Origin: Cliona cf. orientalis | Lineage: Eukaryota; Porifera; Demospongiae; Clionaida; Clionaidae | Assembly (NCBI GenBank): GCA_963930775.1 | Contig: OZ005694.1 | Coordinates: 1,736,001-1,800,000, forward strand | Length of the DNA: 64,000 nucleotides | Direction of reading: 5' to 3' | Shown: piece by piece, positions 4,979 to 61,789 of the stretch | Layout: every line of letters begins with the position of its first letter | How positions within the stretch are numbered: position 1 is the stretch's first letter | Translations under genes and position numbers: made by a program | The notes under the pieces: model-generated | What the model was told of the DNA's origin: nothing | Databases searched by the model: none | The model's input: the letters and a program-made list of their open reading frames with translations, nothing else

Positions 4979-6271
4979 GTGCAAGGATAAAGAACACAAG
5001 GAGGACACCAGCAGCAGCAAAGGCAATCAGAAGCACCACGTTATGGCTGTTGGGACATTCAATGCACGGCGAGAAGATCCAATTGCCAGGCTAAAGCTGT
5101 CCATGCAGGCACCACACAAGATGCCAGTTCGGTTGGAGGCACACTGCTTGCTGGGATCATCTCCAATATCAACTGTCTTGTTGCCTGAATTGCAGTAGAG
5201 TAGGGGACAGAATCTATTGTACATGATACCAGTGCTATGACCCTCATTGAAGGCTGCATTCACCCACACAGTGCCATTCCACTGCAGGAGACCAGTTTTA
5301 TTTTTTACTAAACATCTGAAACCATTGTTAGCCAAGACAGGATAACAGCTGCATGTGGTTTCGTCATGATTTAGAGTCAGTCCTGGAGGGCAGCCTGGGA
5401 GTAAGGTGATATTTATGAAAATTGGGGTAGTTGAGTGTAGATACAACCAGACTGATTATACAAATTATATTCAGATATTTGATTCTTTCATATCTAAAGA
5501 TATCATATTTGTTTGATTCATTGCTAATGTAACCAGATACTGGCAGAGATGATGTTTGTAACAGTAAAAGTTCATAATCATGTTTTGAGGAAACAGTATA
5601 ATTGAAAGGAACACATTTTTCACTATTGATTACCAGTTGCGATTTGTCTCGTTTTGAGTGAGAATCTGAATAAAGGGATCTGGCATGGATCGTACCAACT
5701 GTAGTTCCAAAGTCATAACCCACTATACATGCAGATAACGTGATGGCATCACCACGATAAACACTGGTATTAGTGAAAATGTATGAGATACTTGCACACT
5801 GTGGTTTACCATTGGAGTCACAGAGACACACACGCTGAGGAGTAGAGGATACCGGAGATAGGGTCTTGTCGAAGTCAGGGTCAAAGGAAATGTTTAATTC
5901 ACCGTGGAGACTTTCATGTAGATCAGAACAGTGAGGTTTTCCTTGTTCATTCAAGAAGTCTATGAATTGTGCAGAACATGAAGCATCCCTTACACTTGCT
6001 CCATACATGTGGTGACCAACACCATGTTGTGCATAGTTTCCTGTAAAAGATATTTTAGCAGAGTAGTCTGTGATCATGAATATACAAGGTTGAGAAGACT
6101 GAGAATACACCACTCCACCAACATCAAATGCTGTGTTATTGATAAATTGAATACTCGACTGATATCCCACTGTGGCCACGAGTAATGATGGCATCATAAT
6201 GTTATAATAGACAGCACCTCCTTGAAATGCAGAGTTGTTGAAAAAGAGTAATTTGGAATAACTACCAACAT
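4979..6271 (-). pseudogene. Relic 1 of the beta-helix/multi-membrane family
   Basis: This is a middle fragment of the family, read from 6271 down to 4979. It starts in the last Gly-Gly-Ala rungs, runs through the CLCDSNGKPQC and LPGCPPG Cys-rich modules, and stops in the first membrane segment. Two frame breaks are visible against the paralogues. A deletion near 5485 removes the bases encoding the NIIKNQ-type stretch. One extra base lies near 5070, after the GACMDSFSLAIGSS motif. Both ends are truncated: 6271 lies beside a short element at 6336-6498, and 4979 abuts family B sequence. No start codon, no C-terminal membrane domain, and therefore no functional product. Confidence 0.85.
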
Positions 6272-6335
6272 ATAAGTGTGCGTGGCTACGATAGCTAGCC
6301 GTGTACTATCGATCTTACATAATATTTTTATTATA

Positions 6336-10884: not shown

Positions 10885-13800
10885 TCATTTTGTGTATCTA
10901 GCAGAAGCGGGCATTGTAATGGGCCGAGGAGTATCATTAATCAGTGGTTCAAGTTCAGGATCTTCAATTCGCTCATGAGCGATGTCATCATCATCAATGA
11001 TTTCATCGATGACATCATTGCCTTGATTTTGTCTGCACCTCCAACCAGCACTGAGGCAAGGCTTGATCAAACTCCACACAACAATTACACAGAATTGAGC
11101 AAAGGTGATTCCAATTGACACCATAAGTAATTTTAACCTTAATTCAGTAGATTCCCACTTGTACAGAGTTCCAGAACTCAAGACAATAAGGTTACACAAG
11201 ATAGCGCTTTCTAGAATTCTCACATTTATTCGCTTGTAAACATTCTTTATTGATATGAAGAAAAACAAGAAGGCTATGAACAGTAACAGAGCAAACACAT
11301 TCAGTTCTGGATTGTCCACTGAACTTACTGTCAATAGAACCAGTAGTACTCCTCGAATAAGAAGCATTGCTCCAAACCAGTATTGGTGCTTATCCTTCAA
11401 AGGAGAGAAGTAAGCATCGTAGACAGGGGCTAGCTTGTTGATCCACTTGAGTGGCCTTAGATGAGACACTCTTCTCAACGGCTGAATGAACAGAAGCACG
11501 AGTGTGTAGGGAAGCCACAGGAACACAAGAGTAGCAATGGCAGCTACGAAAACGTAAATGTGAGGGTGCTGGCAGTAGCGTAGGTTTCCATTGAGGTACC
11601 ACACAGCATAGGAGGTGTTTTGTGGGTACTGTGCTATCACTGCAACTGAAGTGGCATCTATCACAGTACAAAGGAGCTTCATGTAAGATAGAAGGAAAAG
11701 TGTGGCTAAAAGAGGAACAGCTCTGCTACCGATGAGGTTAGTGAGGCAAGAGGAGTAGCGGCAAGAAACGATGATAACACCAGCAATGGTCCAGATGTAG
11801 AATGGGAATAGAAATTGTAGCCATGTTTTCCAATAAGCATCCAGTCCTACAAAGAAGCAAGTCTCGATTCCAAAATCCAAGTTGAGCCAGGCAATAAAAA
11901 CTTGAAGAAAATAATTTGCTCCAATATCCGTAGGAAAGAGTATTATTTTGTAAGCCCATACAATGTTAGCATAGAAGATGACTCCATTAATGAGTCCTTG
12001 AGTGGCAGTGAGGTTAAGTGCAAGGATAAAGAACACAAGGAGGATACCAGCAGCAGCAAAAGCAAGCAGGAGCGCCACGTTATGACTGTCAGGACATTCA
12101 ATGCATCGGGAAGATCCAATTGCCAGGCTAAAGCTGTCCATGCAGGCACCACACAGGATGCCGGTTCGGTTGGAGGCACACTGCTTGCTGGGATTATCTC
12201 CAATATTGAATGTCTTGTTGCCTGACTTGCAGTAGAGTAGTGGACAGAATCTGTTGTACATGATATCAGTGCTATTACTCTCATTGAAGGTCGCATTCAC
12301 CCACACAGTACCATTCCACTGCAGGAGACCAGTTTTGTTTTTTACTAAACAACTGAAGCCATTGTTAGCCAGGACAGGATAACAGCTGCATGTGGTTTCA
12401 TCATGATTTAGAGTCAGTCCTGGAGGGCAGCCTGGGAGTAAGGTGATATTTATGAAAATTGGTGTTGTTAAAAGTTCAGGCATGATACAACCAGACTGAT
12501 TATACAAATTATAATCAGATATTTGATTCTTGATAATATTTTCATATCTAAAGATATCGTATTCTTTTGATTCATTGCTAATGTAACCAGATACTGGAAG
12601 GGATGATGTTTGTAACAATAAAAGTTCATAATTATATTTTGAGTAAATGGTATAGTTGAAAGGAACACATTTTCACTATCGATTACCAGTTGCGATTTAT
12701 CTTGTTTTGAGTGAGAATCTGAATAAAGGGATCTGGCATGGATCGTACCAACTGTAGTGCCAAAGTCATAACCCACTATACATGCGGGTAATGTGATGGT
12801 TTCACCACGATAAACACTGGTGTTTCTGAAAATATATGAGATATCAGCACACTGTGGTTTACCATTGGAGTCACAGAGACACACACGCTGAGGAGCAGAG
12901 GATACTGGAGATAGGGTCTCATTGAAGCCAGGGTCAAAGGAGATGTCATCGTGATCATTGCCTGGACAGTGAGGTTTTCCCTGTTTATTCACAAAACCTA
13001 TGAACGTTACACTACATGAGCGATCCCTTATACTTGCTCCATACATGTGGTGACCAGCACTGCATTGTGCATTGTTTTCTATAAATTATATTTTAGCAGA
13101 GTAGTCAGTGATCATGAATATACAAGGTGGTGAAGACTGAGAATATACTGCTCCACCAACATCAAATGCTGTGTTGTTGATAAACTGAATACTCGACTGA
13201 TATCCCACTGTGGTCACGAGTAATGATGGTATGGTACTATAGAGAGCACCTCCTTGAAATGCAGAGTTGTTGAAAAAGAATAATTTGGAATAATTACCAA
13301 CAATGATAGAGGGGTGGACACCTGCTTCTATATAAATTGCACCACCACTGACTTGTGCTGAATTCGTAATGAACTTTAGTGTTGTATTAGTGTTAATAAT
13401 TATGCTTCCATATGTAAAATATATTGCTCCTCCAGCTGATGCTCTATTGTCGTAAAATTCAATACCACTTGTGTTTACATGAGCAATTAAATTCTGTAAT
13501 GATAGAGCTCCTCCATAAGCTGCATGGTTGTATTTAAATATCACACATGATTCAGCACCTATAGTGATCATTCCATCATATATGGCCACCGCTCCACCGT
13601 TTTGTCTGGCAATATTATTCATAAAGACCACCCTTGCTTTAGCATCAATGTGTATCATTGAATTCCACACAGTCATTGCTCCTCCATAATTGTTACATGT
13701 TAGGTTGACAAAGTACACAGTTGCACCTGTTGTGATGTTAAGTGAAGATTTGAGCTCAGGGTGAGTGGTTTCTAGATACACTGCGGTACTTGACGATAGT

Positions 13801-14525
13801 TCTGAAGAGAGGATCCCTAAAATACTGTCACTAAAGTTTACATTTCCTGTTAATGTTACTACACTAGAATATGCCATTATAATTGACTGACTTTGATGTC
13901 TGTACGACTGAAATGTGCTATTGCTCACAAGAATCCCATCACTAACATAACTCATAACAAAGCAGTTTTCTTTGAATGTACTGTTATGCAGTAAAGCTTG
14001 TGTGCCTCTGGCTCTAATAAGGATAAAAGAAATGAGGCCGTTAATGCCAGAGTAGCCATAGAGGTTGGAGTTCTTCACTGTAATGTGGCTCTCTTCAAGA
14101 TGCATCGCAGGACATCTCATTGTCAGAGTTGTGATGTTCACAAAGCTGACATTGAAGAATCGAATAACTGTGCACTTGGGCTCACCAAAAAAATGATGGT
14201 CAATGATGACATTTTCTCTAGATTCTGCAGCTCCTTTCATGATAAATGAGTGGAGCTTTTGTACAATTAAGTCCTTTGTATAGTTGTGGCCTCCACACAT
14301 GAATATCAGTGTTACATTGACGTGGTCTGGTGAAAAGAACTCACTGCTCTGCTCAGCTAAGTAGTCCATTGTGTGACAGAGCTGACCAGGTGGGCAGCTG
14401 CTGTTTCCAGGGCAAGAGCTGAGAGGCTCTGTTGGTGAGACGTAATACACCCCTTCCTTCTTGGTCTCAGCTAGCACATAAACCAGTCCAAATATTAAGA
14501 CAGGCGAGAGAAAGAAAGTCTTCAT
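10885..14525 (-). pseudogene. Family gene 2: beta-helix ectodomain, multi-membrane protein, two lesions
   Basis: Nearly full length, about 1213 codons, from ATG at 14523-14525 to TGA at 10885-10887. It has a hydrophobic signal peptide (MKTFFLSPVLIFGLVYVLA), the SCPGNSSCPPGQLCHTMDY Cys-rich segment, and seven Gly-Gly-Ala rungs. These are followed by the CLCDSNGKPQC and LPGCPPG modules, the GILCGACMDSF motif, about ten membrane segments and the acidic ERIEDPELEPLI tail. Two lesions are visible against the paralogues. A TAA at 13086-13088 replaces the Ser codon after YSAKI. One T is missing from a T-run near 12672, which shifts the frame. Everything else is conserved, so decay is recent or one lesion is a sequencing error. 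Function unknown. A cell-surface receptor or transporter-like role is an inference from topology. Confidence 0.85.
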
Positions 14526-18351: not shown

Positions 18352-21300
18352 TCATTTTGTGTATTTAGCAGAAGCTGGCATAGTAATGGGGTGAGGAGTA
18401 TCATTGATCAGCGGTTCAAGTTCAGGATCTTCAATTCGCTCGTGAGTGATATCATCATCATCAATGACATCATGGCCTTGATTTCGTCTGCATCTCCAAC
18501 CAGCACTGAGATAAAGCTTGATTAAACTCCACACAACAATGACACAGAATTGAGTAAAGGTGATTCCAATTGACACCATAAGCAAGTTTGACCTTGAGAC
18601 AGTAGACTCCCACCTGTACAGAGTTCCAGAACTCAAGACAATAAGGTTCAGCAAGGTAGCACTTTCTAGAATTCTCACATCTACTCGCTTGTATACATTC
18701 TCAATTGATATGAAGGAAAGTAAGAAAGCTATGAACAGGAACAGAGCAAACACATTCAGTTCTGGATTATCCATTGAAGTTACTGTCAATAGAACCAGGA
18801 GTATTCCTCGAACAAGAAGCATTGCTCCAAACCAATATCGGTGCTTATCCTTCAAAGGACAGAAGTAAGCATCGTAGACAGGAGCTAGCTTGTTGATCCA
18901 CCTGAGTGGTCTTAGATGAGACACTCTCCTCAAAGGCTGAATGAACAGAAGCAGGAGTGTGTAGGGAAGCCACAAGAATATAAAAGTAGCAATGGCTGCT
19001 ACAAAAAGGTAAATGTGAGGGCGCTGGCAGTAGCGTAGGTTTCCATCGAGGTACCACACAGCATAGGAGGTATTCTGTGGGTACTGTGCTATCACTGCAA
19101 CTGAGGTGGCATCTATCACAGTACGAAGGAGCTTCATGTAAGATAGAAGGAAGAGTGTGGCTAGAAGAGGAATAGCTCTGCTACCAATGAGGTTAGTGAG
19201 GCGAGAGGAGTAGCGGCAAGCAACAATGATAACACCAGCAATGGCCCAGATGTAGAATGGGAATAGAAACTGCAGCCATGTCTTCCAGTAAGCATCCATT
19301 CCAACAAAGAAGCAAGTCTTGATTCCAAAATCCAAGTTGAGCCAGGCAATAAAAACATGAAGAAATGTGAATAAATAACTTTTTCCAATGTCTGCGGGAA
19401 AGATTATTACCTTGTAGGCCCATACAATGTTAGCATAGAAGATGACTCCATTAATGAGTCCTTGAGTAGCAGTGAGGTTGAGTGCAAGGATAAAGAACAC
19501 AAGGAGGACACCAGCAGCAGCAAAGGCAATCAGAAGCACCACGTTATGGCTGTTGGGACATTCAATGCACCGAGAAGATCCAATTGCCAGGCTAAAGCTG
19601 TCCATGCAGGCACCACACAGGATGCCGGTTCGTTTGGAGGCACACTGCTTGCTGGGATCATCTCCAATATCAACTGTCTTGTTGCCTGAGTTGCAGTAGA
19701 GTAGGGGACAGAATCTGTTATACATGATACCAGTGCTATGACTCTCATTGAAGGTTGCATTCACCCACACAGTGCCATTCCACTGCAGGAGACCAGTTTT
19801 ATTTTTGACTAAACATCTGAAACCATTGTTAGCCAAGACAGGATAACAGCTGCATGTGGTTTCATCATGATTTAGAGTCAGTCCTGGAGGGCAGCCTGGG
19901 AGTAAGGTGATATTAATGAAAATTGGGGTTGTTAGGAGTTCAGTGTATAGATACAACCAGACTGATTATACAAATTATATTCAGATATTTGATTCTTGAT
20001 AATATTTTCATATCTATAAATATCATATTCTTTTGATTCATTGTTAATGTGACCAGATACTGGCAGAGATGATGTTTGTAACAGTAAAAGTTTATAATCA
20101 AGTTTTGAGTAAACTGTATAGTTGAAAGGAACACATTTTTTACTACTGATTACCAGTTGTGACTTATCTTGTTTTGAGTGGGAATCTGGATAAAGAGATC
20201 TGGCATGGATCGTACCAACTGTAGTGCCAAAGTCATACCCCACTATACATGTAAGTAATATGATGGTTTCACCACGATAAACACTGGTATTAATGAAAAT
20301 GTATGAGATACTTGCACACTGTGGTTTACCATCGGAGTCACAGAGACACACACGCTGAGGAGCAGAGGATACCGGAGATAGGGTCACATTGAGGCCAGGG
20401 TCAAAGGAGATGTTAATTCCACCTACATGTGGATGTGAACAGTGAGATTTTCCTTGTTTATTTAGGAAACCTATAGTAAATGCATTACATGACCTATCCC
20501 TTACACTTGCTCCATACATGTGCTGACCAACACTGCATTGTGCATAGTTTCCTGTAAATGATATTTTAGCGGAGTAATCTGTGATCATGAATATACAAGG
20601 TGGTGAAGACTTAGAATACACTGCTCCGCCAACATCAAATGCTGTGTTGTTTATAAACTGAATACTCGACTGATATCCCACTGTGGTCATGAGTAATGAT
20701 GGCATGATACTATAAAGAGCACCTCCTTGGAATGCAGAATTGTTGAAAAAGAGTAGTTTGGAATAATTACCAACAATAATAGAGGTTTGGATGCCTATTT
20801 CTATATTAATTGCACCACCTTTGAATTGTGCAGAATTCATAGTGAAATTTACTGACTTGTTGATGTTGATAATCATGGTTCCATAAAAAGAATTTATTGC
20901 TCCTCCATATGGTGCTCTATTGTTGTAAAATTCGATACCACTTGTGTTCACATGAACAGTTGAATTCACTAACTCTAGAGCTCCACCGTTAGAAGTTGCA
21001 CAATTGTGGCTGAAAATCAGGTTTGATTCACTATTTATAATCAATTTTGCACTGGCAAGCTCAATTGCTCCACCATATACAGCACGGTTGTATGTGAATA
21101 TCACACATGATTCAGCACCTACAGTAATCATTCCATCCCGCAATTCCACCGCTCCACCATTACCATAACCTATGGCAGTATTATGCATAAAGACCACTCT
21201 TGCTTTAGTATCAATGTGCATTATTGCACCCCATCCATACACTGCTCCACCATGACCACCGCATGTTAGGTTGACAAAGTACACAGTTGCACCTGTTGTG

Positions 21301-22082
21301 ATGTTAAGTAAAGATTTGAGCTCAGGGTGAGTAGCTTTTAGATACACTGCTGTACCTGATGAGTGGATCACTTTAGTACTGTTGGTAAAGTTTACATTTC
21401 CTGCTAATCTTACTACACTAGAAAGGGCAGTAATAATTGAATGTGATCGATGTCTGTAGGACTGAAATGTGCTATTGCTCACAATTATCCCATCACTAAG
21501 ATTACTCCTAATAAAGCAGTTTTCTTTGAATGTACAATTGTCAAGTAAAGCCTGTGAGCCTCTGCCTGTAATATCAATGAAGGATAAGCTTTCATTTATG
21601 CCAGGGTAGCCATTGAGGTTGGAGCTCTTCACTGTAATATGGCTCTCTGTAAGATATATTGCAGGACATCTCATTGTCAGGGTTGTGATGTTCACAAAGC
21701 TGACATTGAAGAACTGAATAAGTGTGCACTTTGGTTCACCAACTACCAACTTGAACTGATGGTCAATGATGGCATTCTCTCTGGATTCTGCAGTTCCTTT
21801 CATGACAAATGAGTGTAGATTTTGCACAAATAAGGTTTTTGTGTAGTTGTGGATTCCACACATGAATATCAGTGTTACATTGACGTGGTCTGGTGAAAAT
21901 AACTCACTGCTATGTTCGGCTAAGTAGTCCATTGTGTGACAGAGCTGACCAGGTGGGCAGCTGCTGTTTCCAGGGCAAGAGACAAGATGCTTTACTGGCT
22001 TGACATAGTAGACCTCACCTTCAGTTAGCCTGATGCAAATTGATCCAAATATCAAGACGAAGAAAAGGGAGAACAGTCTCAT
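18352..22082 (-). CDS. Family gene 3: beta-helix/multi-membrane protein, one frameshift
   Basis: Full-length family member from ATG at 22080-22082. The first 716 codons hold the signal peptide (MRLFSLFFVLIFGSICIRLT), the Cys-rich SCPGNSSCPPGQLC segment, eight Gly-Gly-Ala rungs, and the CLCDSDGKPQC module. The last 534 codons hold LPGCPPG, RTGILCGACMDSF, about ten membrane segments and the acidic tail. The halves overlap at 19932-19956. Two extra bases (a TA repeat in CTATACAC, against CTACAC in family gene 5) break the frame there. Apart from that site I saw no lesion, so this may be a functional allele with a sequence error or a very young pseudogene. N-glycosylation sequons are numerous. 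The gene is intronless as read. Molecular function unknown. Confidence 0.8.
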
Positions 22083-22998: not shown

Positions 22999-23866
22999 CC
23001 CCGCAATACAAATAAAAGTCCACACAGTGCTGTTCCACAGCAGGAGACCAGTTTTGTCTTCTACTAAACAACTGAAGCCATTGTTAGCCAAGACAGGATA
23101 ACAGCTGCATGTGGTTTCATCATGATTTAGAGTCAGTCCTGGAGGACAGCCTGGGAGTAAGGTGATATTTATGAAAATTGGGGTTGCTAGGAGGCTTGAA
23201 AAGATACAATCAAACTGATTATACGAATAAGAGGATATTATTAGAGAGTTGATACTCTCTTTATAACTAAAGATATCTTGTTCTGTTGATTCATTGCTAA
23301 TGTAAGCAGATACTGGCAGAGATGATGTTTGTAGCAATAAAACTTCACTGAGTAAACTGTATAGTTGAAAGGAATACAGTTTTTACTGTCGAATACCAGT
23401 TGCGATTTGTCTCGCTTTGAGAGAGAATCAGAATAAAGAGATCTGATATGGATCGTACCAACTGTGGTTCTAAAGTCAAAACCCACCATACATGCAGGTA
23501 ATGTAGTGGTATCACCACGATAAACACTGGTATTTCTGAAAATGTATGATCGAGCTACTAGCACACTGTGGTTTACCATTGGAGTCACAGAGACACACAC
23601 GCTGAGGAGCAGAGGATACTGGAGATAGGATCTTGTTGAGGCCAGGATCCAAGGAGAATATTTTAACGTACCCACTAGAGTCAGGTTTATCATCATGATA
23701 AAAACGGTGAGGTTTTCCTTGTTTATTCACAAAAATTATGGATTCAATGGAACATGAATCATCCCTTATACTTGCTCCATACATGTGGTGACCAACACCG
23801 CGTTGTGCATAGTTTCCTGTAAAAGATATTTTAGTGGAGTAGTCTGTGATCATGAATATAATGATG
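22999..23866 (-). pseudogene. Relic 4, central fragment of the family
   Basis: Read from 23866 to 22999, this covers the end of the beta-helix (TDYSTKISFTGNYAQ), the MYGASIRD and CLCDSNGKPQC segments, the Thr-rich module, and LPGCPPGLTLNHDETTC. It stops abruptly in the WNSTVW region. An insertion near 23550 disturbs the SYIF segment, and other indels shift frames, so no continuous protein is possible. Its 5' end sits 25 bp from the TTAA end of a family A element. Its position beside the 5' flank of gene 3 matches that of the plus-strand relic at 51682-55285 beside gene 5. I therefore treat the two as inverted duplicates. Confidence 0.85.
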
Positions 23867-24677
23867 TTTATGCGTGCATAAACTATAGTTAAGGTACCAT
23901 TAAATTGCGTGGGCGTGAGGGTGGGGATATGACACCTAAACCACATCAAAGTCATTAGTGAGGTGCGTGTTGTATAACCACGCCCTTTTAATTGCACAGA
24001 TCTCAGGGGTGTGGCTGCTAGAGCCGGAAGTGTTCATTTAATATCCTTCATGGACCGGAAGCCGAGCCGGAAGGGAGGGGCCAGGCCACGCCCAAAACAG
24101 CACCAACCTGCGCCTCAAGGACCATCATTCTCAATCAAGTGCCGACTGGCCACCGGATGTCCACCGGAAGCCCACAATCAATCCCAATTAAAACACACAG
24201 CTTCCTCAAGGCCAAAACACACACAAACACTTGGAGGCCGTTCTGCCACACCGCCCACACCAGAGCTCACCTCATTTCCTGTGTGGGCGGGGTAACAACA
24301 CGTCATCGCAACCACATCCGCTTCAAACCATCGTCAGCTTCCGTCCAGCCGTACAGTCCCCTCGATCGCACCGGCGTACAGTGCCTCATTAACTGACATG
24401 GCCTCACCTTTGACCTCCTGCCACGCCCCCGAAGCCTCCTGGCCGGGTGCAAAGGTCACCACCGCATCCGGGACACGCCCACTTATCGCCGCGGCCAAGT
24501 CCCATGCCCCGATATCCAAGCACTGGCCCGTGAAGCCACGCCCAATCTGAAGCAATAAAACCTGCATTAACGCACACGCACACACTCCACACAGTGCCAG
24601 GAACACGCCCACATGCTTAATTAGGCCTAATTAGGCTTTTTTTTTTTTTTTTTTTTTTTTTTTTCAAGGCGACCAGA

Positions 24678-26785: not shown

Positions 26786-26826
<41 letters not shown>

Positions 26827-29245: not shown

Positions 29246-29451
29246 CTCTCTGGATTTTGCAGCTCCTTTCATGACAAATAAGTGGAAATCATGTACAGTC
29301 AAATCCTTTGTGTAGTTGTGGACTCCACACATAAATATCAGTGTTAGCTACATTGACGTGATCTGGTGAAAGAAACTCACTAATATGCTTGGCTAAGTAG
29401 TCCATTGTGTGACAGAGCTGACCAGGTGGGCAGATGCTATTTCCAGGGCAA
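29246..29451 (-). pseudogene. Relic 4, N-terminal fragment of the family
   Basis: Read from 29451 to 29246, it encodes CPGNSICPPGQLCHTMDYLA through the FLSPDHVNV and LHDF-type segments seen in the intact paralogues. It has a small insertion near 29345 that breaks the frame. It begins exactly at the TTAA end of the family A element at 29453, where the paralogues continue with the signal peptide. Orientation and order suit a displaced 5' part of the relic at 22999-23866. Confidence 0.8.
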
Positions 29452-29452
29452 T

Positions 29453-30472
29453 TTAAGGTACCATTAAATTGCGTGGGCGTGAGGTGGGGGATATGACACC
29501 TAAACCACATCAAAGTCATTAGTGAGGTGCATGTTGTGTAACCACGCCCTTTTAATTGCACAGGTCTCAGGGGCGTGGCTGCTAGAGCCGGAAGTGTTCA
29601 TTTAATATCCTCCATGGACCGGAAGCCGAGCCGGAAGGGAGGGGCCAGGCCACGCCCAAAACAGCCCCACCCTGTTCCCCAAGGACCACCATTCTCAATC
29701 AAGTGCCTACTAACCACCGGATGTCCACCGGAAGCCCACAATCAATCCCAATTAAAACACACAGCTTCCTCAAGGCCAAAACACACACAAACACTTGGAG
29801 GCCGTTCTGCCACACCGCCCACGCAAGAGCTCACCTCATTTCCTGTGTGGGCGGAGTAACAACACGTCATCGCAACCACATCCGCTTCAAACCATCGTCA
29901 GCTTCCGTCCAGCCGTACAGGCCCCTCGATCGCACCGCCGTACAGTGCCTCATTAACAGACATGGCCTCACCTTTGACCTCCTGCCACGCCCCCGAAGCC
30001 TCCTGGCCGGGGTTCAAAGGTCACCACCGCTTCCGGGACACGCCCACCTATCGCCGAGGCCAAGTCTCAGGCGCCGATATCCAAGCACTGGCCCGTGAAG
30101 CCACGCCCAATCGGAAGCAATAAAACCTGCATTAACGCACACGCACACACTCCACACAGTGCCAGGAACACGCCCACATGCTTAATTAGGCCAAATAAGG
30201 CTTTTTTTTTTTTTTTTTTTTTTGTCGTTGCGGTTAATAGTTAAGAAAGAATGCTTTGATCTTGCTTTGAAGTGGGCAATTACCGGTGTTTTCTTCAGGG
30301 GCCACTTCCGGTCGCTAATTACACGCGCATAATCATCCCTGGCCGATTCTAGACACGCCCACCTTCGACCAAAAGCACTCGTATGGCCTCTTCGGCCACG
30401 CCCCTTCACGATTCGCTAATTGAATTAGCCAATCCTGACGCTCACGCCCACGCACTTTAATGCTACCTTAAC
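29453..30472 (+). mobile_element. Family A element, uninterrupted copy (1020 bp)
   Basis: TTAAGGTACCATTAAATTGC at the left and GCACTTTAATGCTACCTTAA at the right, with a central T-run at about 30202-30223. The left flank is family-gene coding sequence. The right flank is the fold-back element at 30484, not the continuation of that gene, so this is not a simple insertion into an intact gene. Confidence 0.85.
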
Positions 30473-30483
30473 TGTCCTGAGTA

Positions 30484-31776: not shown

Positions 31777-31787
31777 TAACGTACGTT

Positions 31788-40027: not shown

Positions 40028-40481
40028 TACGTCCAGAGTCCCTCACGAATACGCCGCCATAAATTCGAACTAGGACACATTGACAAATTGCGCATGCTCC
40101 GTATGCGCGTACAATATTGGGGCGTGCGGCTTGAGCCGGTTGACCTTCACCTACCATGTGCTCGACTGAATAGGGAAATCCCCCTGCCCTGAAAGCGAGC
40201 TCGCTAGAGAAAGCGAACTGAGAGAGATGCAATAAGGATATCATCGGATAGTCCACGATCTCTTGTACGTTAGGTTCGAATTCTGGGCCCCAACAACCTT
40301 TCATGCGCGCTAAATATTTTAAAACAGTCTTAACCGCATTTTCATCATCATTAATCATCATTACTCATAATTACCTCATCGGTCGGCCGATTTATTTTTT
40401 TCTAATTGGGACTCTGGACATAATGAAAAACTTTAAGACTACGTCCAGAGTCTCTCACGAATACGCCGCCATAAATTCGAA

Positions 40482-40772
40482 CTAGGACACATTGACAACT
40501 GCGCATGCTCCGTATGCGCGTACAATATTGGGGCGCGCGGCTTGAGCCGGTTGACCTTCACCTGCCATGTGCTCGACTGAATAGGGAAATGCCCCTGCCC
40601 TGAAAGCGAGCTCGCTAGAGAAAGTGAACTGAGAGCGATGCAATAAGGATATCATTGGATAGTCCACGATCTCTTCTACGCTAGGTTCGAATTCTGGGTC
40701 CCAACAACCTTTCATGCGCGCTAAACATTTTGAAACAGTCTTAACCGCATTTTCATCATCATTAATCATCAT
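40482..40772 (-). other. Recurrent minus-strand open frame in array units
   Basis: The example in unit 2 has 96 codons from ATG. The same frame is open at 39981-40361 (126 codons), 41284-41568, in part at 42603-42818 and at 43019-43246. They share FAFSSELAFRAGGFPYSVEH and ARPNIVRxxGACA. Units 4 and 5 have lost it. It does not resemble a known domain. It may be a real peptide or only an open frame carried along by repeat identity. Confidence 0.25.
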
Positions 40773-40780
40773 TACTCATA

Positions 40781-41218
40781 CCGTATTACCTCTAATTTAA
40801 CGGACACCAGAAAAATAATTATTTTGGCCAATGTCCACTATAATTAGAGCACACGAAAATAGCCGGCGTTCGAAGTGTCCGATGAATTAGAACACGCTTT
40901 CACGCATGCGCATTCGGTCAAATGGATGTGCGATCGAGCAGCTGCAGAGATTGAGAAAATGGAGATGGTACCTGGAGTTCCCTGTTCATGGTGGGAAAGA
41001 GAACAGCTTGCCTGCTTCATTACCACCAAAGAAGCAGCTTTCCATTGCAAATTTTGCTCGATCAGTACCACGCTAGCGCGAGCTGTCCAACAATGTCCGG
41101 ATAATTAGAACAACAAAAACTCAAACTTCATTGACTGTCCGGTGTAATTAGAGGCAAAAAATAATTCGAAATGGTGTCCGGATAATTAGAGATGTCCGTT
41201 AAATTAGAGACAATACGG
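40781..41218. mobile_element. Tc1/mariner-type MITE inside array unit 2, 438 bp
   Basis: Starts CCGTATTACCTCTAATTTAA and ends TTAAATTAGAGACAATACGG, with TA at 40779-40780 and 41219-41220. The neighbouring units read CTCATAATTACCTCATC straight through, which is the empty site and proves that TA was duplicated on insertion. The 77-codon open frame inside has no known domain. Confidence 0.9.
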
Positions 41219-51681: not shown

Positions 51682-51862
51682 AAGTTTTCATAAATATCAC
51701 CTTACTCCCAAACTGCCCTCCAGGACTAACTCTTAATCATGATGAAACCACATGCAGCTGTTATCCTGTCTTGGCTAACAGTGGCTTCAGTTGTTTTAAA
51801 AAAGTTGGCAAAACTGGTCTCCTGCAGTGGAACGGCACTGTGTGGGTGAATGCAACCTTCAA
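51682..51862 (+). pseudogene. Relic 6, 5' piece of the family
   Basis: Encodes the FINITLLP, CPPGLTLNHDETTCSCYPVL and LLQWNGTVWVNATF region, with a change that alters the VKNKTG segment. The N-terminal two thirds of the gene are absent. It stops at GCAACCTTCAA where the insertion 51863-53882 begins, and the protein continues at 53883. Confidence 0.85.
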
Positions 51863-52274
51863 CTAGAGCTCTCTCGAGCACAAAACCCTCGGCGCGCTGC
51901 ATGGCGTTAGCTACATGATTCAACAGTTGCATGCAGAAAAGGGGGTAGCTAAAGGGCTGGGGACAGGGTGAGACAGGGATGAGGCTAATGTTATACTTGC
52001 ACAGCAGTGTTATTATCAAGACAGTTCAACAGCTCATAGCAGCAACAACCCTAGCGTGTTATATCAAACTCCACACTGTGGTGTCGACGTCTACTCAACC
52101 TCCCTCACTGTAGCCCAACCTCCAATTCTTGGGGACTTAGCTAGCTACATCTTAACTTGATGGACTATGATGCAAAGCCTTGGCTCGAGACTGAAGTACA
52201 CTGAGCAATATTGCATGTCCAATATTATCGCAACTCACTTGGTTTCAAGTACTGTAATTCTATGCATGCATATA

Positions 52275-53460
52275 CCGTACACTCGCGAAAGAGGGCCCAC
52301 TACGGAATGTCGGCCCACCCCCCACTTTGGGTTAGTCTCGTGCCCAGCCTCTTTATCGCACGCGGAAAAAGAGTCTGGTGAAACGCGTATTCAATTTTGG
52401 TTCCATACGTACGTGACGTATTCTGACACGGCACAATGAATGTCATTATAAGCGATGGCGCAATCACTGTTTAATATTATTATTCGCGCAAAGTGTTTGA
52501 AAAGCACCTACCGTAGGCTATGGCGCCAGCGGGATCCTTGGAGAGTGGAGTCCGAGTGCTATGCTTGTCTCGTTGCCTGATTTGTACCCACAAGGACGGC
52601 GGTAAGCTTTCAAAGACAGGAAAAATTTTCTCCTGGTAGACTAAGAGAGATGAACACATTCTTGCTGGCCAAAATGTAGCTTACCACTTTCGCCTAAACT
52701 TCACAGACACTAGCATGATTCAAACGTGGGGTAATTTCGATGATCGCTTGCTGAATGTCAGTTTCGCTCTCCAACAACTACATGTAGCCATCTCCTACAA
52801 GTAAAGTGCAAAGTACACGGTTAAGCATCGCAATCTTTTGTTGATGACGTGACACCGTTCTGCAATCTGATTGGACGCGGCCAATCTCGCCGCGCGGAAC
52901 CAAAATTGAATACGCGTTTCACCAAACTCTTTTTCCGCGTGCGATAAAGAGGCTGGGCACGAGACTACACTTTGGGCTCAATATCCTGCTAAGGTCTAGT
53001 GTTTACTCGAATATGCGCCCATGTGTAGCTGCCCTTGAAATCGTAGCTCAAATGGCCAGTTTATGATGACTGAACCTCGAATAATCTATGCAAAATCAAC
53101 AAATAACCTGCAAAACATCCGTAATACTAAGCCTAGCCAGCTCTATGCCACGTTTCAGCACAAATGAACGATCGTGCACGGCTAGCGATTGTGGCCACGC
53201 CCACTGAATACGGCTGCACTCAACGACACACGGTGCAGTATCGCGGCCGCCCTTGCTCTGGATTGGTAACCGTGCTTGAATGAGGCTGAAATCAATAGTA
53301 GCTGCTGCTACTATTCAAATTATGAAGCTAGCTTGGGTAACTTATCTGGGCGCTCTTTCGAGTATAAACGCGATATTGATACCTCGAATATCGGCCCATC
53401 CCCCAATCTTGGCCCAATGTAAGGTGCACCGCCCATGGGCCCTCTTTCGCGAGGGTACGG
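52275..53460. mobile_element. Family C Tc1/mariner-like MITE hosting a hAT-like MITE
   Basis: Left end CCGTACACTCGCGAAAGAGG, right end CCTCTTTCGCGAGGGTACGG. TA on both sides (52273-52274 and 53461-53462). Length 1186 bp including the 637 bp nested element. A shorter relative is at 6336-6498. Confidence 0.8.
52332..52968. mobile_element. hAT-like MITE with perfect 8 bp duplication, 637 bp
   Basis: Left end TTAGTCTCGTGCCCAGCCTC, right end GAGGCTGGGCACGAGACTAC. ACTTTGGG is present at 52324-52331 and 52969-52976. The inverted arms extend about 70 bp, through GCGGAAAAAGAGTCTGGTGA and CAATTTTGGTTCC. Confidence 0.92.
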
Positions 53461-53882
53461 TACAAGCCAGAGAGTCAAAGGGTAGCTACCACAAGAATAC
53501 AGGGAGCTAAGCCTTAGAATTGAAAAGAAGCCACGATCGTCAAAAGCTCACTGGTGGACTGAGCGGCGGGATTGATGCAACCGCGCATGCGCTAAGGGTA
53601 ATAGACGTACATACCGTATATAGCGAGCAACCTATTTATACGTTAAGTCATGCTTTCACTGGCTCGGGCAAAGTCAAGAAGCTTAGAATCGTAAAATGAC
53701 GCCAAACTGGCGAACAAAGCGCTTTCGGAGAAATCCACACAAATCATGAATGGGGAACGCCATAAGGAACCTTGCAACACCGCAAATTGGACTCGCAAAC
53801 GAGGTATGTAGCAGCTAGTGTGGTAACAGACAGACAGACAGACAAACCAACTACCGTAACCCTCGCGCATGCGCCGAGGGTT

Positions 53883-55285
53883 AATGAGGATCATAGCACT
53901 GGTATCATGTACAACAGATTCTGTCCACTACTCTGCTGCAAGTCACATAGCTAATAAGACAGTCAATATTGGAGATGATCCCAGAAAGCAGTGTGCCTCC
54001 AACCGAATCGGCATCCTGTGTGGTGCTTGCATGGACAGCTTTAGCCTGGCAATTGGATCTTCTCGGTGCATTGAATGTCCCAACAGTCATAACATGGTGC
54101 TTAATTCTGCTTGCCTTTGCTGCTGCTGGTGTTTTACTTGTGTTCTTTAATTATCCTTGTACTCAACCTCACTGCCACTCAAGGATTCATTAATGGAGTC
54201 ATCTTCTATGCTAACATTGTATGGGCCTACAAAATAATACTCTTTCCCTCAGATATTGGAGCAAATTATTTATTCAAGTCTTTATTGCCTGGCTCAACTT
54301 GGATTTTGGAATTGAGACTTGCTTCTTTGTTGGACTGGATGCTTATTGGAAGACATGGCTACAGTTTCTATTCCCATTCTACATCTGGACCATTGCTGGT
54401 GTTATCATTGTTGCTTGCCGCTACTCCTCTCGCCTCACTAACCTCATCGGTAGCAGAGCTGTTCTCCTTTTAGCCACACTCTTCCTTCTATCTTACATGA
54501 AGCTCCTTCATACTGTGATAGATGCCACCTCAGTTGCAGTGATAGCACAGTACCCGCAGAACACCTCCTATGCTGTGTGGTACCTCGATGGAAACCTATG
54601 CTACTATTAGCACCCTCACATTTACCTTTTCTTAGCAGCCATTGCTACCTTTATATTCTTGTGGCTTCCCTATACGCTCATGCTTCTGTTCATTCAGCCT
54701 TTGAGGAGAGTGTCTCATCTAAGACCACTCAAGTGGATCAACAAGCTAGCCCCTGTCTACGATGCTTACTTCTCTCCTTTGAAGGATAAGCACCGATACT
54801 GGGTTGGAGCAATGCTTCTTATTCGAGGAATACTCCTGGTTCTATCGACAGTTACTTCAGTGGATAATCCAGAATTAAATGTGTTTGCACTATTCCTGTT
54901 CATAGCTTTCTTACTTTCCTTCATATCAATTGAGAATGTTTACAAGCCAATAGATGTGAGAGTTCTAGAAAGTGCTACCTTGCTGAACCTTATTGTCTTG
55001 AGTTCTGGAACTCTGTACAGGTGGGAGTCTACTGACTCAAGATCAAAATTGCTTATGGTGTCAATTGGAATCACCTTTACTCAATTCTGTGTCGTTGTAT
55101 GGAGTTTGATCAAGCCTTGTCTCAGTGCTGGTTGGAGGTGCAGATGAGATCAGGGCCATGATGTCATCGATGATGATGATGATGACATCACTCACGAGCA
55201 AATTAAAAATCCTGAACTTGAACCGCTGATCAATTTCACTTCTCAGCCCATTACCATGCCAGCTTCTGCTAAATATATGAAATGA
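53883..55285 (+). pseudogene. Relic 6, 3' piece of the family (membrane domain)
   Basis: Continues the fragment at 51682-51862 through the GACMDSFSLAIGSSRCIECP motif, the ten-membrane-segment domain and the acidic tail, ending in a TGA at about 55283. Lesions against the intact paralogue are: an altered YCNSGNK region near 53940; indels near 54105 and 54140 in the first membrane segment; a TAG replacing the Gln codon of YYQHPH at 54607; a missing codon near 55095; and a TGA after GWRCR at 55145. Upstream of the intact gene at 58175 and on the same strand. Confidence 0.88.
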
Positions 55286-58174
55286 TCGAAGCAAATATAA
55301 AAATTAACTTAAACTGCAAAATTGAATTTTTGAATGATAACTTTTCAGCTACACATTTTTATTAGATCTCTATTAGCTAATTAGCTGTTTTATAATAATT
55401 ATGCGTGCAATTATAATAGATCTAGTAATCAATTACTGTTAGTGAATCCTCGCCCCTTTAGAATTCATTATCATTTATTAGTACGTTGAATGTTCGACGA
55501 GTGGTGAGGGTTTTGCACTCCTGTGCATTCATTGCAGGTGCAATCAAGTAATACTTCTTTGAAAATGAAATAGAGAACAGTTTGAATGGATTGAGATGGA
55601 GTAACTAGTGCTAAGGGGTGAGTGCCTATGAGCTTATATATAATAATGATTATATCCAGTGTATTGCCTGGCAGTAGCTTTGATCTACGTCATAGGTGGG
55701 ATACTTTAGGATGTTTATGCATGATGCTATTAATTATAAGACCACTGTAACTTGATTCATTGTTTTCCATCACCCACCCACATGCTTATTTTGTAGCCGA
55801 CTCAAATTCATTATGCATTGCTATAGCAAGCCAACTATAGTTATAGTCTTGGCTTAATACTATACTTTCTTTGTGTGTAATAGAAAACCATGCTCACAGT
55901 AAGTTGAACTTTCATGCTTTTATGGTTATAGTTAGCTAGTTACTTTTCAAACAGGTTAGATACCTCGTCCAATGAGATCTACGCTCTTTAGAGACTCTCA
56001 GACCCATAGAAGCACCCTCATTGTGCTTGGGATGCTGTTACCCCTTGTTATTATCAGTAGCTATTGTCGCCGGGTTGATCTGCACCCCATGCATCTGCCG
56101 GGGTAAAGTAATCGGTTTTGTCTCAGCATAAAAAGCGCAGATCTCAAGATTTAGGCATCTGAGTGACTCATAAGCACAATGAATCAGTTGAGATCTTCAA
56201 AAAACATAGCTACTTCATTAGGGTGCAAATAGATGCAGCATGCTGGGTATGTGCTGATCTGGAGTCTTTAGCCTAATTAGTATGTATCCTTAACCTCCCC
56301 CTCCAACAAAACCACGCCCTGCATATTGTGGCTTCTTTAATGGAGTATATGACGACTTCACCAGAAAATTTGTGTGAAATTTAATTATATTTGGCTTGCA
56401 TTCTATTAGCATGAACACGGCAAATCTTAAAATCAGTTCTTATCACAAGATATGAAATTGAATTCATCGTGACTAGCATATCTTGTTTATCAAAAAATTA
56501 CCGAATTCTCCTAAAAGTGTATGCCCCCTGGCCAAGAACTTTGATAGTGGTGTAGGAAGATGTTTTGGAGTAGGGGGGCTGGGAATGGTAATCAAATTAA
56601 TACAAGCTATGCCCACCACAAATCTAGGTAAGGTATACTCCCCCAGGAAATTTTAGATTTTCAACTGTGGTAGCTAATCGTCTTTCCCAAATGGTCTCTT
56701 TTCTCATAAGAGGTCACATAATATCCAACTTACTTTCTACGAAGAGTATACATGACTATCAGTGTATGGACACAAATATATACTATGGAGCAGAATAAAA
56801 GTCCCAAATGGTCCCTTGTCTTATAGCTGATCAACTTCGTAGCTAGCTAGAAAGCTTGATCAAATTCATGATAAAATTTGATTTGTTTCATAGCTAGCTA
56901 CTAGCTACTAGCTATGTTTCCCATTTTCTCATAGCTGGTCACTATTTCCAAACAGCTGATGAATGATAATACCTCAGTGACCCGGGTATAAGCATCCATG
57001 GACGCTTAAATAAGTAGCTACATGCATAACTCTTGATTTTGGATGTTTGGATTTGGTGGACTGGAATGATGGAATGGAACGGTGGAATGATAGAGGACCT
57101 GTCAGTACTCTAATATCTATGGTCAGCCACGCACATAGCTAATTCACAGCTCTAAGTCTCAATCGTATTGCAAGCCACGCTAGTAAACAACATTCTGGTC
57201 ATCCTAGTATGCATGTATATGGGGGCACATGCATAAAAGAGAAAGCGTAGTCCTTTTTATGAAGGGGTTGGCTACGTAGGTACACCAGCACTGTGAGTAT
57301 ACACTAGTAGTAAGGGTGTGGTTGATCCAAGTGGTTAGCAAGGTTATCCCTACTTATAGTTTTAGCTACTACCTTCAGGTGATAATAATGAAATTATGTT
57401 TAGTGCATGCTTATTATTCATCACACGCCTTGAATATCTCACTCTCATCCATGTAGCTAAATGTGGGTGTGATTAAAAGTTGCTGATTGCCCTACATAAT
57501 ATGGAGCTGTATTTAATTGCTATCCCGAGGGCATCTATTATTGTGGTGCACGTGTGTATTCATACTGCACTAACTTAGCACCTGCTAGCTAGCTATAGTG
57601 TGCGTGGCTGATGTATTGTGTTGTCACTTATGTCATGCAATCACTTATTATCCTATGAATTAGTGTATGCGTGTTATTTCAGGTGTTATTTCACGATAGT
57701 AATTATGTCTGTGTGTGTAGTCAGTCTGTAATATGTTATTGACCCTTGCACAAGTAGGGTCCCTTTTCATACAGCTATACTAGTCACACTGTACATGTAA
57801 AAGCCTAACTTACCCAAAATACAGTAATTTAAATACTGGTACTAGGGCACATAATATTATTGGGTAGAGGAATTTCACTGGGGAGGGGGCTAAGCCCCTC
57901 CCCCCCTTAGATTTTGAACCATGGGGCTGAAGTCCCCCCAGCTCCCCTGGTTCTTATTTGAAAATTATCATGATACCCTAACCTACCCTACCATGCACCC
58001 ACGCTTGACCTACTGTATTTAAGTCACTGAGTTCTGTTGCACTAGTCAGATTGAGTCTGTGCATGCACCTTCACAGGACCTCTCACTCTTCTTAAAAAGC
58101 ACCTATAGCTATCTCTTGGCTGTTGTCATATAAACAGTCAAGATAGAATATTATATATATGCCCAACGTTAACA
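55286..58174 (+). other. Intergenic region between relic 6 and family gene 5
   Basis: 55440-55605 matches the 3' flanks of family genes 2 and 3. 56080-56230 is a family D fragment (GGGGTAAAGTAATCGG). 56520-58170 is the inverted counterpart of 22085-22990 apart from about 900 bp (56830-57720). The last 160 bp hold the GGTCAAGC-type motif, inverted, near 58003 and the AT-rich run near 58150 just before the start codon. This is therefore a duplicated promoter region. No other gene was seen. Confidence 0.6.
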
Positions 58175-61100
58175 ATGAGACTGGTGTCCCTTTTCTTCAT
58201 CTTGATATTTGGATCAATTTGCATCAGGCTAACTGAGGGTAAGGTCTACTATGTCAAGCCAGTGAGGCATCTTATCTCTTGCCCTGGAAATAGCAGCTGC
58301 CCACCTGATCAGCTCTGTCACACAATGGACTACTTAGCCGAGTATAGCAGTGAGTTCTTTTCATCAGACCACGTCAATATAACACTGATATTCATGTGTG
58401 GAGTCCACAACTATACAAAAAACTTGACAGTACAAAATCTTCACTCATTTATCATGAAAGGAGCTACGGAATCCAGAGAGAATGTCATCATTGACCATCA
58501 GTTTGTTGGTAAACTCAAGTGCACAATTATTCGGTTCTTCAATATCAGCTTTGTGAATATTACGACCCTGACGATGAGATGTCCTGCAATGGAGCTTACT
58601 GAGAGCCATATTACAGTGAAGAGTTCCAACCTCTATGGCTATCCTGGCATAAATGAAAGCTTATCCTTCATCGATATTATAGGAAGAGGCTCACAAGCTT
58701 TACTGGACAACTGTACATTCAAAGAAAACTGCTTTATTATGAGTATTCTTAGTGATGGGATAATTGTGAGAAATAGCACATTTCAGTCATACAGACATCA
58801 ATTTCTTTCAATTATCACTGCCCTTTCTAGTGAAGTAACATTAGCAGGAAAAGTGAATTTTACCAACGGTACGATCCACTCTTCATCAGGTACAGCAGTG
58901 TATCTAAAAGGCACTCACCCTGATCTGAAATCTTCACTTAACATCACAACAGGTACAACTGTGCGCTTTGTCAACCTAACATGCAGTAGTACAGGAGGAG
59001 CAGTGTACATGTCAGATGGAATGATCACTGTTGGCACTGATTCATATGTGATATTTACATATAATTGTGCTACGCAAGGTGGAGCAATTTGGCTTACCAA
59101 TGCAAAATTGATTGTTAATAGTGAAGTAAATCTGATTTTCAGCCATAATTATGCAACTTCTAATGGTGGAGCTCTAGAATCAGTAAATTCAACTGTTCAT
59201 ATGAACACAAGTGGTATCAAATTTTACAACAATAGCGCACCATATGGAGGAGCAATAGATTTTTGTTATGGAACCATGATTGTCAACACCAATAAATCAG
59301 TGAATTTCACTATGAACTCTGCACGAGTGAAAGGTGGTGCAATTTATATAGAAGCAGGTGTCCACCCCTCTATCATTGTTAGTGATTATTCCAAACTACT
59401 CTTTTTCAACAACTCTGCATTTCAAGGAGGTGCTCTCTATAGTACCATGCCATCATTACTCATGACTACAGTGGGATATCAGTCGAGTATTCAGTTTATC
59501 AACAATACAGCATTTGATGTTGGTGGAGCAGTGTATTCTCAGTCTATACCACCTTGTATATTCATGATCACAGACTACTCCGCTAAAATATCTTTTACAG
59601 GAAACTATGCACAACGTGGTGTTGGTCACCACATGTATGGAGCAAGTGTAAGGGATAAGTCATGTTCTGCGTATTTCATAAATTTTGTGAATGAACAAGG
59701 AAAACCTCACTGTTCTCTTCCATATGAAGGTTCCTACCGTCAACTGAACATTTCCCTTGACTCTTGCTTCGATGAGACCCTATCTGGGGTATCCTCTGCT
59801 CCTCAGCGTGTGTGTCTCTGTGACTCCAATGGCAAACCACAGTGTACTAGTTTCTCATACATTTTCACCAATACTAGTGTTTATCGTGGTGAAACCATCA
59901 CATTATCTGCATGCATAGTGGGTTATGACTTTGGCACCACAGTTGGAACGATCCATGCCAGATTCCTTTATTCAGATTCTTTCTCAAAACAAGACAAATT
60001 GCAACTGGTAATTGACAGTGCAAAATGTGTTCCTTTCAACTATACAGTTTACTCGAAACATGATTATGAACTTTTATTGTTGCAAACATCCGTTAGCAAT
60101 GAATATGGTATCATTAATAATTATTTTACATATCGAAATGTTATCAAGACTCAAATATCTTATTATAATTCGTATAATCAGTCTGGTTGTATCTACACTG
60201 ACCTCCTAAGGACACCAATTTTTATAGATATTACTTTACTCCCAGGCTGCCCTCCAGGACTGACTCTTAACCGTGATGAAACCACATGCAGCTGTTATCC
60301 TGTCTTGACTAACAATGGCTTCAGTTGTTTAGTAAAAAACAAAACTGGTCTCCTGCAGTGGAACGGCACTGTGTGGGTGAATGCAACCTTCAGTGAGGGT
60401 CATAGCACTGGCATCATGTACAACAGATTCTGTCCCCTACTCTACTGCAACTCAGGCAACAAGACAGTCAACATTGGAGATGATCCCAGTAAGCAGTGTG
60501 CCTCCAACCGAACTGGCATCCTGTGTGGTGCCTGCAAGGACAGCTTTAGCCTGGCAATTGGATCTTCTCGGTGCATCAAATGTCCCAATAATCATAACGT
60601 GGCGCTCCTGCTTGCCTTTGCTGCTGCTGGTGTCCTCCTTGTGTTCTTTATCCTTGCACTCAACCTCACTGCCACTCAAGGACTCATTAATGGAGTCATC
60701 TTCTATGCTAACATTGTATGGGCTTACAAAATAATACTCTTTCCCACAGACATTGGAGCAAATTATTTATTCACATGTTTTCAAGTTTTTATTGCTTGGC
60801 TCAACTTGGATTTTGGAATGGAGACTTGCTTCTTTATTGGACTGGATGCCTATTGGAAGACATGGCTGCAGTTTCTATTTCCCTTCTACATCTGGGCCAT
60901 TGCTGGTGTTATCATTGTTGCTTGCCGCTACTCCTCTCGCCTCACAAACCTCATCGGTAGCAGAGCTGTTCCTCTTCTAGCCACACTCTTCCTTCTATCT
61001 TACATGAAGCTCCTTCGTACTGTGGTAGATGCCACCTCAGTTGCAGTGATAGCACAGTACCCACAAAACACCTCCTATGCTGTGTGGTACCTAGATGGAA

Positions 61101-61789
61101 ACCTATGCTACTACCAGCACCCTCACATTTACCTTTTCGTAGCGGCCATTGCTACTTTTATATTCTTGTGGCTTCCCTATACACTCCTGCTTCTGTTCAT
61201 TCAGCCTTTGAGGAGAGTGTCTCATCTAAGGCCACTCAAGTGGATCAACAAGCTAGCCCCTGTCTACGATGCTTACTTCTCTCCTTTGAAGGACAAGCAC
61301 CGATACTGGTTTGGAACAATGCTTCTTATTCGAGGAATACTCCTGGTTCTATTGACAGTAACTTCAGTGGATAATCCAGAACTGAATGTGTTTGCACTAT
61401 TCCTGTTCATAGCTTTCTTACTTTCCTTCATATCAATTGAGAATGTTTACAAGCGAATAGATGTGAGAGTTCTAGAAAGTGCTACCTTGCTGAACCTTAT
61501 TGTCTTGAGTTCTGGAACTCTGTACAGGTGGGAGTCTACTGACTCAAGGTCAAAATTGCTTATGGTGTCAATTGGAATCACTTTTACTCAATTCTGTATC
61601 ATTGTTGTATGGAGTTTGATCAAGCCTTGCCTCAGTGCTAATTGGAGGTGCAGACAAAATCAAGGCAATGATTTTATCGATTATGATGACATTGCTCATG
61701 AGCGAATTGAAGATCCTGAACTTGAACCGCTGATCAATGATACTCCTCACCCCATTACCATGCCAGCTTCTGCCAAATACACAAAATAA
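58175..61789 (+). CDS. Family gene 5: intact beta-helix/multi-membrane surface protein (1204 aa)
   Basis: The only uninterrupted member, ATG 58175-58177 to TAA 61787-61789. Residues 1-22 form a signal peptide (MRLVSLFFILIFGSICIRLT). A Cys-rich segment (SCPGNSSCPPDQLCHTMDY) follows at about 34-53. About 100-470 is a beta-helix-like ladder. Its seven Gly-Gly-Ala rungs lie at about 274-452 with F-x-N spacing, like chlamydial Pmp repeats. CLCDSNGKPQC is near 543, LPGCPPG near 690 and GILCGACKDSF near 780. Membrane segments lie at about 809-829, 835-856, 899-920, 931-950, 983-1010, 1044-1065, 1069-1090, 1101-1118 and 1128-1150, with perhaps one more. The cytoplasmic tail has an ERIEDPELEPLI motif that includes an ExxxLI sorting-type signal. 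Many N-glycosylation sequons. An AATAAA overlaps the stop codon. No known enzyme motif. A plasma-membrane receptor or channel-like role is inference. Confidence 0.9.
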   Translation: MRLVSLFFILIFGSICIRLTEGKVYYVKPVRHLISCPGNSSCPPDQLCHTMDYLAEYSSEFFSSDHVNITLIFMCGVHNYTKNLTVQNLHSFIMKGATESRENVIIDHQFVGKLKCTIIRFFNISFVNITTLTMRCPAMELTESHITVKSSNLYGYPGINESLSFIDIIGRGSQALLDNCTFKENCFIMSILSDGIIVRNSTFQSYRHQFLSIITALSSEVTLAGKVNFTNGTIHSSSGTAVYLKGTHPDLKSSLNITTGTTVRFVNLTCSSTGGAVYMSDGMITVGTDSYVIFTYNCATQGGAIWLTNAKLIVNSEVNLIFSHNYATSNGGALESVNSTVHMNTSGIKFYNNSAPYGGAIDFCYGTMIVNTNKSVNFTMNSARVKGGAIYIEAGVHPSIIVSDYSKLLFFNNSAFQGGALYSTMPSLLMTTVGYQSSIQFINNTAFDVGGAVYSQSIPPCIFMITDYSAKISFTGNYAQRGVGHHMYGASVRDKSCSAYFINFVNEQGKPHCSLPYEGSYRQLNISLDSCFDETLSGVSSAPQRVCLCDSNGKPQCTSFSYIFTNTSVYRGETITLSACIVGYDFGTTVGTIHARFLYSDSFSKQDKLQLVIDSAKCVPFNYTVYSKHDYELLLLQTSVSNEYGIINNYFTYRNVIKTQISYYNSYNQSGCIYTDLLRTPIFIDITLLPGCPPGLTLNRDETTCSCYPVLTNNGFSCLVKNKTGLLQWNGTVWVNATFSEGHSTGIMYNRFCPLLYCNSGNKTVNIGDDPSKQCASNRTGILCGACKDSFSLAIGSSRCIKCPNNHNVALLLAFAAAGVLLVFFILALNLTATQGLINGVIFYANIVWAYKIILFPTDIGANYLFTCFQVFIAWLNLDFGMETCFFIGLDAYWKTWLQFLFPFYIWAIAGVIIVACRYSSRLTNLIGSRAVPLLATLFLLSYMKLLRTVVDATSVAVIAQYPQNTSYAVWYLDGNLCYYQHPHIYLFVAAIATFIFLWLPYTLLLLFIQPLRRVSHLRPLKWINKLAPVYDAYFSPLKDKHRYWFGTMLLIRGILLVLLTVTSVDNPELNVFALFLFIAFLLSFISIENVYKRIDVRVLESATLLNLIVLSSGTLYRWESTDSRSKLLMVSIGITFTQFCIIVVWSLIKPCLSANWRCRQNQGNDFIDYDDIAHERIEDPELEPLINDTPHPITMPASAKYTK

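Follow-up and report, generated by a model that had tools for sequence, protein, structure and literature searches.

At the locus lies gene H, a single open frame running from ATG to stop. It belongs, as an intact member, to a very large family in which a variable beta-helix ectodomain is joined to a conserved multi-pass membrane domain; further copies are found in the same window (the whole 64-kb stretch of DNA that was analyzed, part of contig C6). The copies and the layout of gene H are detailed in Table 1. A sequence-only reading of this DNA had described an intact protein of 1204 residues with a signal peptide and several Cys-rich modules, and all three features stand: the frame is unbroken, the signal peptide is indicated by hydropathy (its cleavage site is putative), and 29 Cys precede a GxLCGxC motif. 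Just before the membrane domain there is a match to DUF7630 (PF24633), which at 17.1 bits lies below the Pfam cut-off of 27. The architecture of helix, Cys-rich modules and membrane domain is well supported and, to judge from the length of the single frames, the family genes are apparently intronless.

Table 1. Family copies in the 64-kb window and the parts of gene H (residue numbers refer to the gene H protein).
Feature	Position	Strand	Remarks
Copy A	4980..6284	-	broken fragment
Copy B	10888..14525	-	almost full length; internal stop and frame change
Copy C	18355..22082	-	almost full length; frame change
Copy D	23020..23985	-	truncated; adjoins dispersed repeat at 23889-24658
Copy E	29246..29456	-	small N-terminal fragment; beside same dispersed repeat family as D
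Copy G	51684..55282	+	~2 kb separates its matching pieces; stops
Upstream flank common to H and copy C	57756..58174	+	one 82%-identity match continuing into coding region
Gene H	58175..61789	+	open single frame; 1204 aa and stop
Signal peptide, ~residues 1-22	58175..58240	+	hydropathy peak 2.06 at residues 1-19; cleavage site putative
Ectodomain with predicted right-handed beta-helix, residues 24-480	58244..59614	+	Pmp repeats, motif spacing, predicted structure
Extracellular linker and Cys-rich modules, residues 481-804	59615..60586	+	DUF7630-like edge at 773-803
Multi-pass membrane domain, 9-10 segments, ~residues 805-1150	60587..61624	+	hydropathy
Tail, presumed cytosolic	61625..61786	+	conserved DDIAHERIEDPELEPLI-type motif (residues 1171-1187)

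The ectodomain is built of repeats resembling those of polymorphic membrane proteins (Pmp). Two profiles match the gene H protein above their cut-offs: Pfam Chlam_PMP (PF02415; E 3.3e-15, 55 bits against 20.6) and NCBIfam POMP_repeat (TIGR01376; E 4.2e-15, 54.7 bits against 15). Seven GG[AV] motifs occur between residues 24 and 545 at a spacing of 27–32, where 2000 shuffles gave a mean of 0.38 and a maximum of four. A looser FxxNxA-type motif occurs eight times, against a shuffle mean of 1.92 but a shuffle maximum that is also eight: the Pmp-like rungs of the original reading hold by profile and by GG[AV] count, but not by the count of this second motif. Structure prediction returned the beta-helix that had been anticipated, confident for residues ∼254–393 and below pLDDT 50 at both ends, and structure comparison aligned the ectodomain to solved parallel beta-helices over residues ∼101–456. 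Among the listed matches, which cover the families on the comparison list, those nearest in fold are solved structures of adhesins, of autotransporter passengers and of helices active on polysaccharides.

The gene H ectodomain contains 29 NxS/T sequons against 11.3 expected from shuffles (an excess of ∼2.5-fold), the rest of the protein only three, as expected of a glycosylated extracellular part. Sequons exceeded their own shuffles in all 14 members examined, the smallest excess being that of locus L055 (37 against 27.8). Alignment of copies H, C and B shows that they are distinguished by rung-sized insertions and deletions of ∼30 residues, and across the 14 members the stretch N-terminal to the membrane domain ranges from 753 to 1368 residues. 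The member at L055:80-5821 has 1914 codons and 23 GG[AV] motifs, about three times the number in gene H.

Hydropathy averaged over 11 family members shows nine membrane-type peaks, and a further hydrophobic stretch is visible by eye near residues 835–855. The nine or ten helices first suggested are on this basis a fair count but not a proven one: gene H alone, at a stricter cut-off, gives seven rows beyond the signal peptide, some of them overlapping. The earlier reading placed the combination of helix and membrane domain in no named family; for six membrane domains, no credible Pfam family was found at E values up to 10; 7tm (GPCR) models were absent from the same searches, and the family-averaged peaks number nine. 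Identity between family members in this domain falls as low as 21%, and an AlphaFold2 model of it with the window sequences as sole input reached a mean pLDDT of 34.7, too low for a reliable fold.

In genes of the C6 type (named, like the C7 type, for a contig) the tail carries DDIAHERIEDPELEPLI or close variants. HER is present in 25 of 36 tails, including those of the distant loci L049–L051, and 26 of 36, all of the C6 or C7 type (two subfamilies), have an acidic dileucine pattern that may act as an endocytic sorting signal. It is possible that the membrane domain is an ion channel and the helix its sensor or anchor, the family then being a chemosensory or mechanosensory repertoire of olfactory or TRP type. 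The size and clustering of the family, its long single frames and the constraint on its membrane domain would fit such a role, as would an odd number of crossings, which by hydropathy would put the tail inside. However, no Pfam model for a channel, whether TRP-like (PF06011 and relatives), PKD or of another type, matched any of the six membrane domains at E values up to 10, and no sequence relative was found in the PDB. We consider a channel family unlikely.

The remaining copies in the window are broken, and by different lesions in different copies, as the suggestion of rapid copy turnover would have it. Copies A, B and C, as well as the distant L017, have their frame changes close together, but the changes differ from one another, so that the lesions look independent; programmed frameshifting was rejected on the same grounds, and the predicted RNA fold around the break in copy B is ordinary (z 0.64). 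Since D and E follow each other in the expected order and may derive from a single copy, the intact share in the window is one of six or one of seven.

Various repeats also occur in the window. Four stretches (1-415, 23889-24658, 26795-27516 and 29453-30223) belong to one dispersed family, ∼86–96% alike, two of them beside the broken copies D and E. A reverse-transcriptase frame (46832-48514, minus strand; RVT_1, E 1e-37) marks a retroelement between two groups of family copies. A tandem array at 39999-43367 is diverged and has units of ∼411–438 bp, and there are two-copy tandem duplications at 35707-36086 (unit 190 bp, 97% match) and 4139-4522 (unit 185 bp, 91%). Three further stretches (30482-31778, 32924-33271 and 62766-63377) are 78–82% self-complementary, as expected of palindromic or transposon-like elements.

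A search of the genome (217 Mb, 149 contigs) shows that six copies in a local cluster understated the family, which is dispersed over at least 233 loci on 19 contigs, where loci are matches merged at 2.5 kb and merging may have fused neighboring copies. Membrane-domain similarity accounts for at least 214 loci (126 long) and DUF7630 alone for a further 19 (14 long), of which the three fetched, L053, L054 and L055, are clear family members. The membrane-domain query from C6 gave at least 111 rows, with 109 of 1778 candidates scored, and that from a C7 member at least 109, with 109 of 1545 scored; because no locus was common to both searches, the true family size is above 233. DUF7630 lies above its cut-off at 32 places in the genome. 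Chlam_PMP, a model of 19 positions, was found at two places only at E 0.001 and is thus a poor probe for the family.

That most copies are broken holds within the window but not genome-wide, where 140 of the at least 233 loci have a stop-to-stop frame of 1050 codons or more, a measure that is only a proxy for intactness (the 1112-codon frame of L056 terminates inside the membrane domain). The largest group (C6, 1.45–2.30 Mb) comprises at least 51 loci, 18 of them long; the next largest (C7, 2.21–2.49 Mb) at least 37, of which 28 are long. Long frames are thus the minority in the C6 group and the majority in the C7 group: the family is real, larger and, outside the C6 cluster, healthier than first supposed.

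Might a transposon or retrotransposition have dispersed the copies, making them passengers of a mobile element rather than a host receptor family? Single long frames in many copies, dead copies, and repeats adjoining several of them would all be in keeping with such an origin, as would the fact that matches of gene H to B and C stop at the H stop codon and that, by self-comparison of the window, B has no flank 5′ of its start in common with H or C. Against this, H and C have 419 bp of upstream flank in common, and B, C and G ∼200–320 bp of downstream flank. These partly shared flanks favor duplication of DNA over retrocopying, although this is unproven for each copy. Moreover, 35 of 37 loci in the C7 cluster lie on the plus strand, and purifying selection acts on the membrane domain (see below). 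We therefore regard a mobile-element passenger as very improbable. A viral or bacterial origin was rejected, there being no relatives in viral contigs, prokaryote genome contigs (searched with the whole protein and a membrane profile), phage records or PHROGs (two whole proteins, E 0.001). Among 14 control genomes DUF7630 was found in none and Chlam_PMP in one (Escherichia coli).

Variation was analyzed in 19 loci (171 pairs), 11 of the 30 candidates L009–L038 having no frame of at least 900 codons. In this sample, whose ranking by membrane-domain similarity biases that domain towards conservation, dN/dS (as a ratio of means) was 0.56 for the helix, 0.51–0.61 for two extracellular stretches that follow it, 0.26 for the Cys-rich region, 0.24 for the membrane domain and 0.38 for the tail. 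Along the gene dS varies between 0.14 and 0.61, and in no gene region or 50-residue window did mean dN exceed mean dS. Column entropy was 0.81 in the helix against 0.27 in the membrane domain, so that, among loci chosen by similarity in the latter, a variable ectodomain accompanies a constrained transmembrane part. Within the helix, predicted strands are more variable than loops (1.02 against 0.55), perhaps partly because the invariant GGA columns may sit in loops.

When six rungs of the C6 subfamily are placed in register, entropy is 1.84 at position +4 and 1.91 at position +6 from GGA, a pattern equalled by a single register shuffle in 5000, or by 24 in 5000 when the GGA columns are excluded. 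At these positions, presumed to face outward, pN/pS is 1.01, as against 0.55 at the presumed inward positions +3 and +5; several further rung offsets also lie at 1.0–1.27. The C6 register was not repeated in the C7 subfamily (six sequences, three GG rungs), where entropy is 0 at both +4 and +6, although the ectodomain is again more variable than the membrane domain (0.45 against 0.13).

A pN/pS near 1 at the variable rung sites may reflect relaxed constraint, and it is here that an adhesive or matrix role has to be weighed: the helix would attach to cells or glycans without sensing anything, and most of its diversity would be due to drift, the ectodomain being only loosely constrained. The solved folds nearest to the helix speak for such a role. 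Nonetheless, a multi-pass membrane domain exceeds the needs of an anchor and is constrained, and variation in the C6 subfamily falls at particular rung positions. An explanation by adhesion alone appears improbable to us.

The history of the copies appears to differ from one part of the gene to another. Within nine segments of ∼100 residues, pairwise distances from odd and even codons correlate at 0.12–0.89 (mean 0.45); seven segments are internally consistent (r 0.35–0.89), the remaining two only weakly so (0.12–0.13). Between segments (36 comparisons) the correlation ranges from −0.17 to 0.44 with a mean of 0.08, and distances in the ectodomain show no correlation with those in the membrane domain (r −0.09); ranking by membrane-domain similarity may depress some of these values but should matter less for contrasts of within with between segments. 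That correlation between neighboring segments is near zero suggests exchange among copies. A PHI-like test points the same way for residues 690–1190 and 800–1150 (0 of 1000 permutations each) and more weakly for residues 275–480 (23 of 1000); for residues 480–690 there was no signal (393 of 1000). Divergence does not correlate with distance along contig C6 (Mantel r 0.03, 1859 of 5000; 18 C6 loci, L025 on C7 being omitted), which fits widespread exchange and lends no support to simple neighbor-by-neighbor duplication. The simplest reading is that copies throughout the family have undergone gene conversion or unequal exchange.

Taken together, the pattern of variation leads us to propose, with a probability of roughly 0.5, that the family is a recombining germline repertoire of cell-surface recognition receptors evolving by birth and death. 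The signal peptide would send the protein into the secretory pathway, placing outside the cell a predicted right-handed beta-helix that, from its sequons, is probably glycosylated. In one subfamily, copies were found to differ at residues whose position recurs from rung to rung; alternating hydrophobicity suggests that these residues point outward, and together they would make up a ligand-contacting stripe. The Cys-rich modules would link the helix to the constrained membrane domain of nine to ten segments, which may transmit or internalize the signal, and the acidic dileucine-type pattern in the conserved tail motif makes uptake of bound particles a plausible output. Alignments and recombination tests suggest that new specificities would come from duplication, from rung-sized segments being gained or lost, and from short segments being swapped among copies. 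Dead copies pile up through lesions that differ from copy to copy, and next to repeats. Should the host be a filter feeder, the likeliest ligands would be microbes or food particles, with self/non-self recognition second.

A bolder proposal is more tentative, and on balance we think it doubtful: that an animal lineage has built a very large germline repertoire for immune or self-recognition on the beta-helix, with a hypervariable ladder of rungs comparable to leucine-rich repeats, exchange of segments among hundreds of intronless genes, and readout by a membrane domain of undescribed type. Known large recognition repertoires use leucine-rich repeat, immunoglobulin and NLR scaffolds. Were the receptor reading correct, the beta-helix would join these; at least 233 loci would form a recognition repertoire visible to domain libraries mainly as ‘Pmp repeats’; and the family would be a concrete candidate for the means by which an animal lacking adaptive immunity distinguishes microbes, food and self.

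A search of the open-licence literature (including Pmp in Porifera and DUF7630) found no paper describing the family, which is weak evidence; papers found for pectin lyase in Porifera are off topic by their titles and opening abstract lines. The combination of helix and membrane domain is not mentioned in the available passages of PMC12909245, PMC7385117, PMC4302439 and PMC12345144, and a word search of PMC11229196 yielded none. The chlamydial Pmp proteins are among the closest known systems: they too are multigene and variable, and share the GGA/FxxN-type rungs at scores above curated cut-offs. Here, however, Cys-rich modules and a multi-pass helical domain follow the helix in the same protein, encoded in a genome of 217 Mb; no autotransporter beta-barrel model appears among the Pfam hits of gene H at E values up to 1, and the C-terminal region consists of hydrophobic segments of membrane-helix type. 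SRRP, Vag8 and pertactin, which are bacterial adhesins or autotransporter passengers, show 10–14% identity over the aligned part and differ in membrane attachment. DUF7630, a 45-position model of unknown function for which gene H falls short of the cut-off, is comparable in the short Cys-rich stretch directly before the membrane domain. Finally, sponges are described, in the passages available, as having large duplicated repertoires of NLRs and of rhodopsin and adhesion GPCRs (PMC12909245, PMC4302439): these resemble the present family as big duplicated recognition or sensory repertoires, but are built from other domains.
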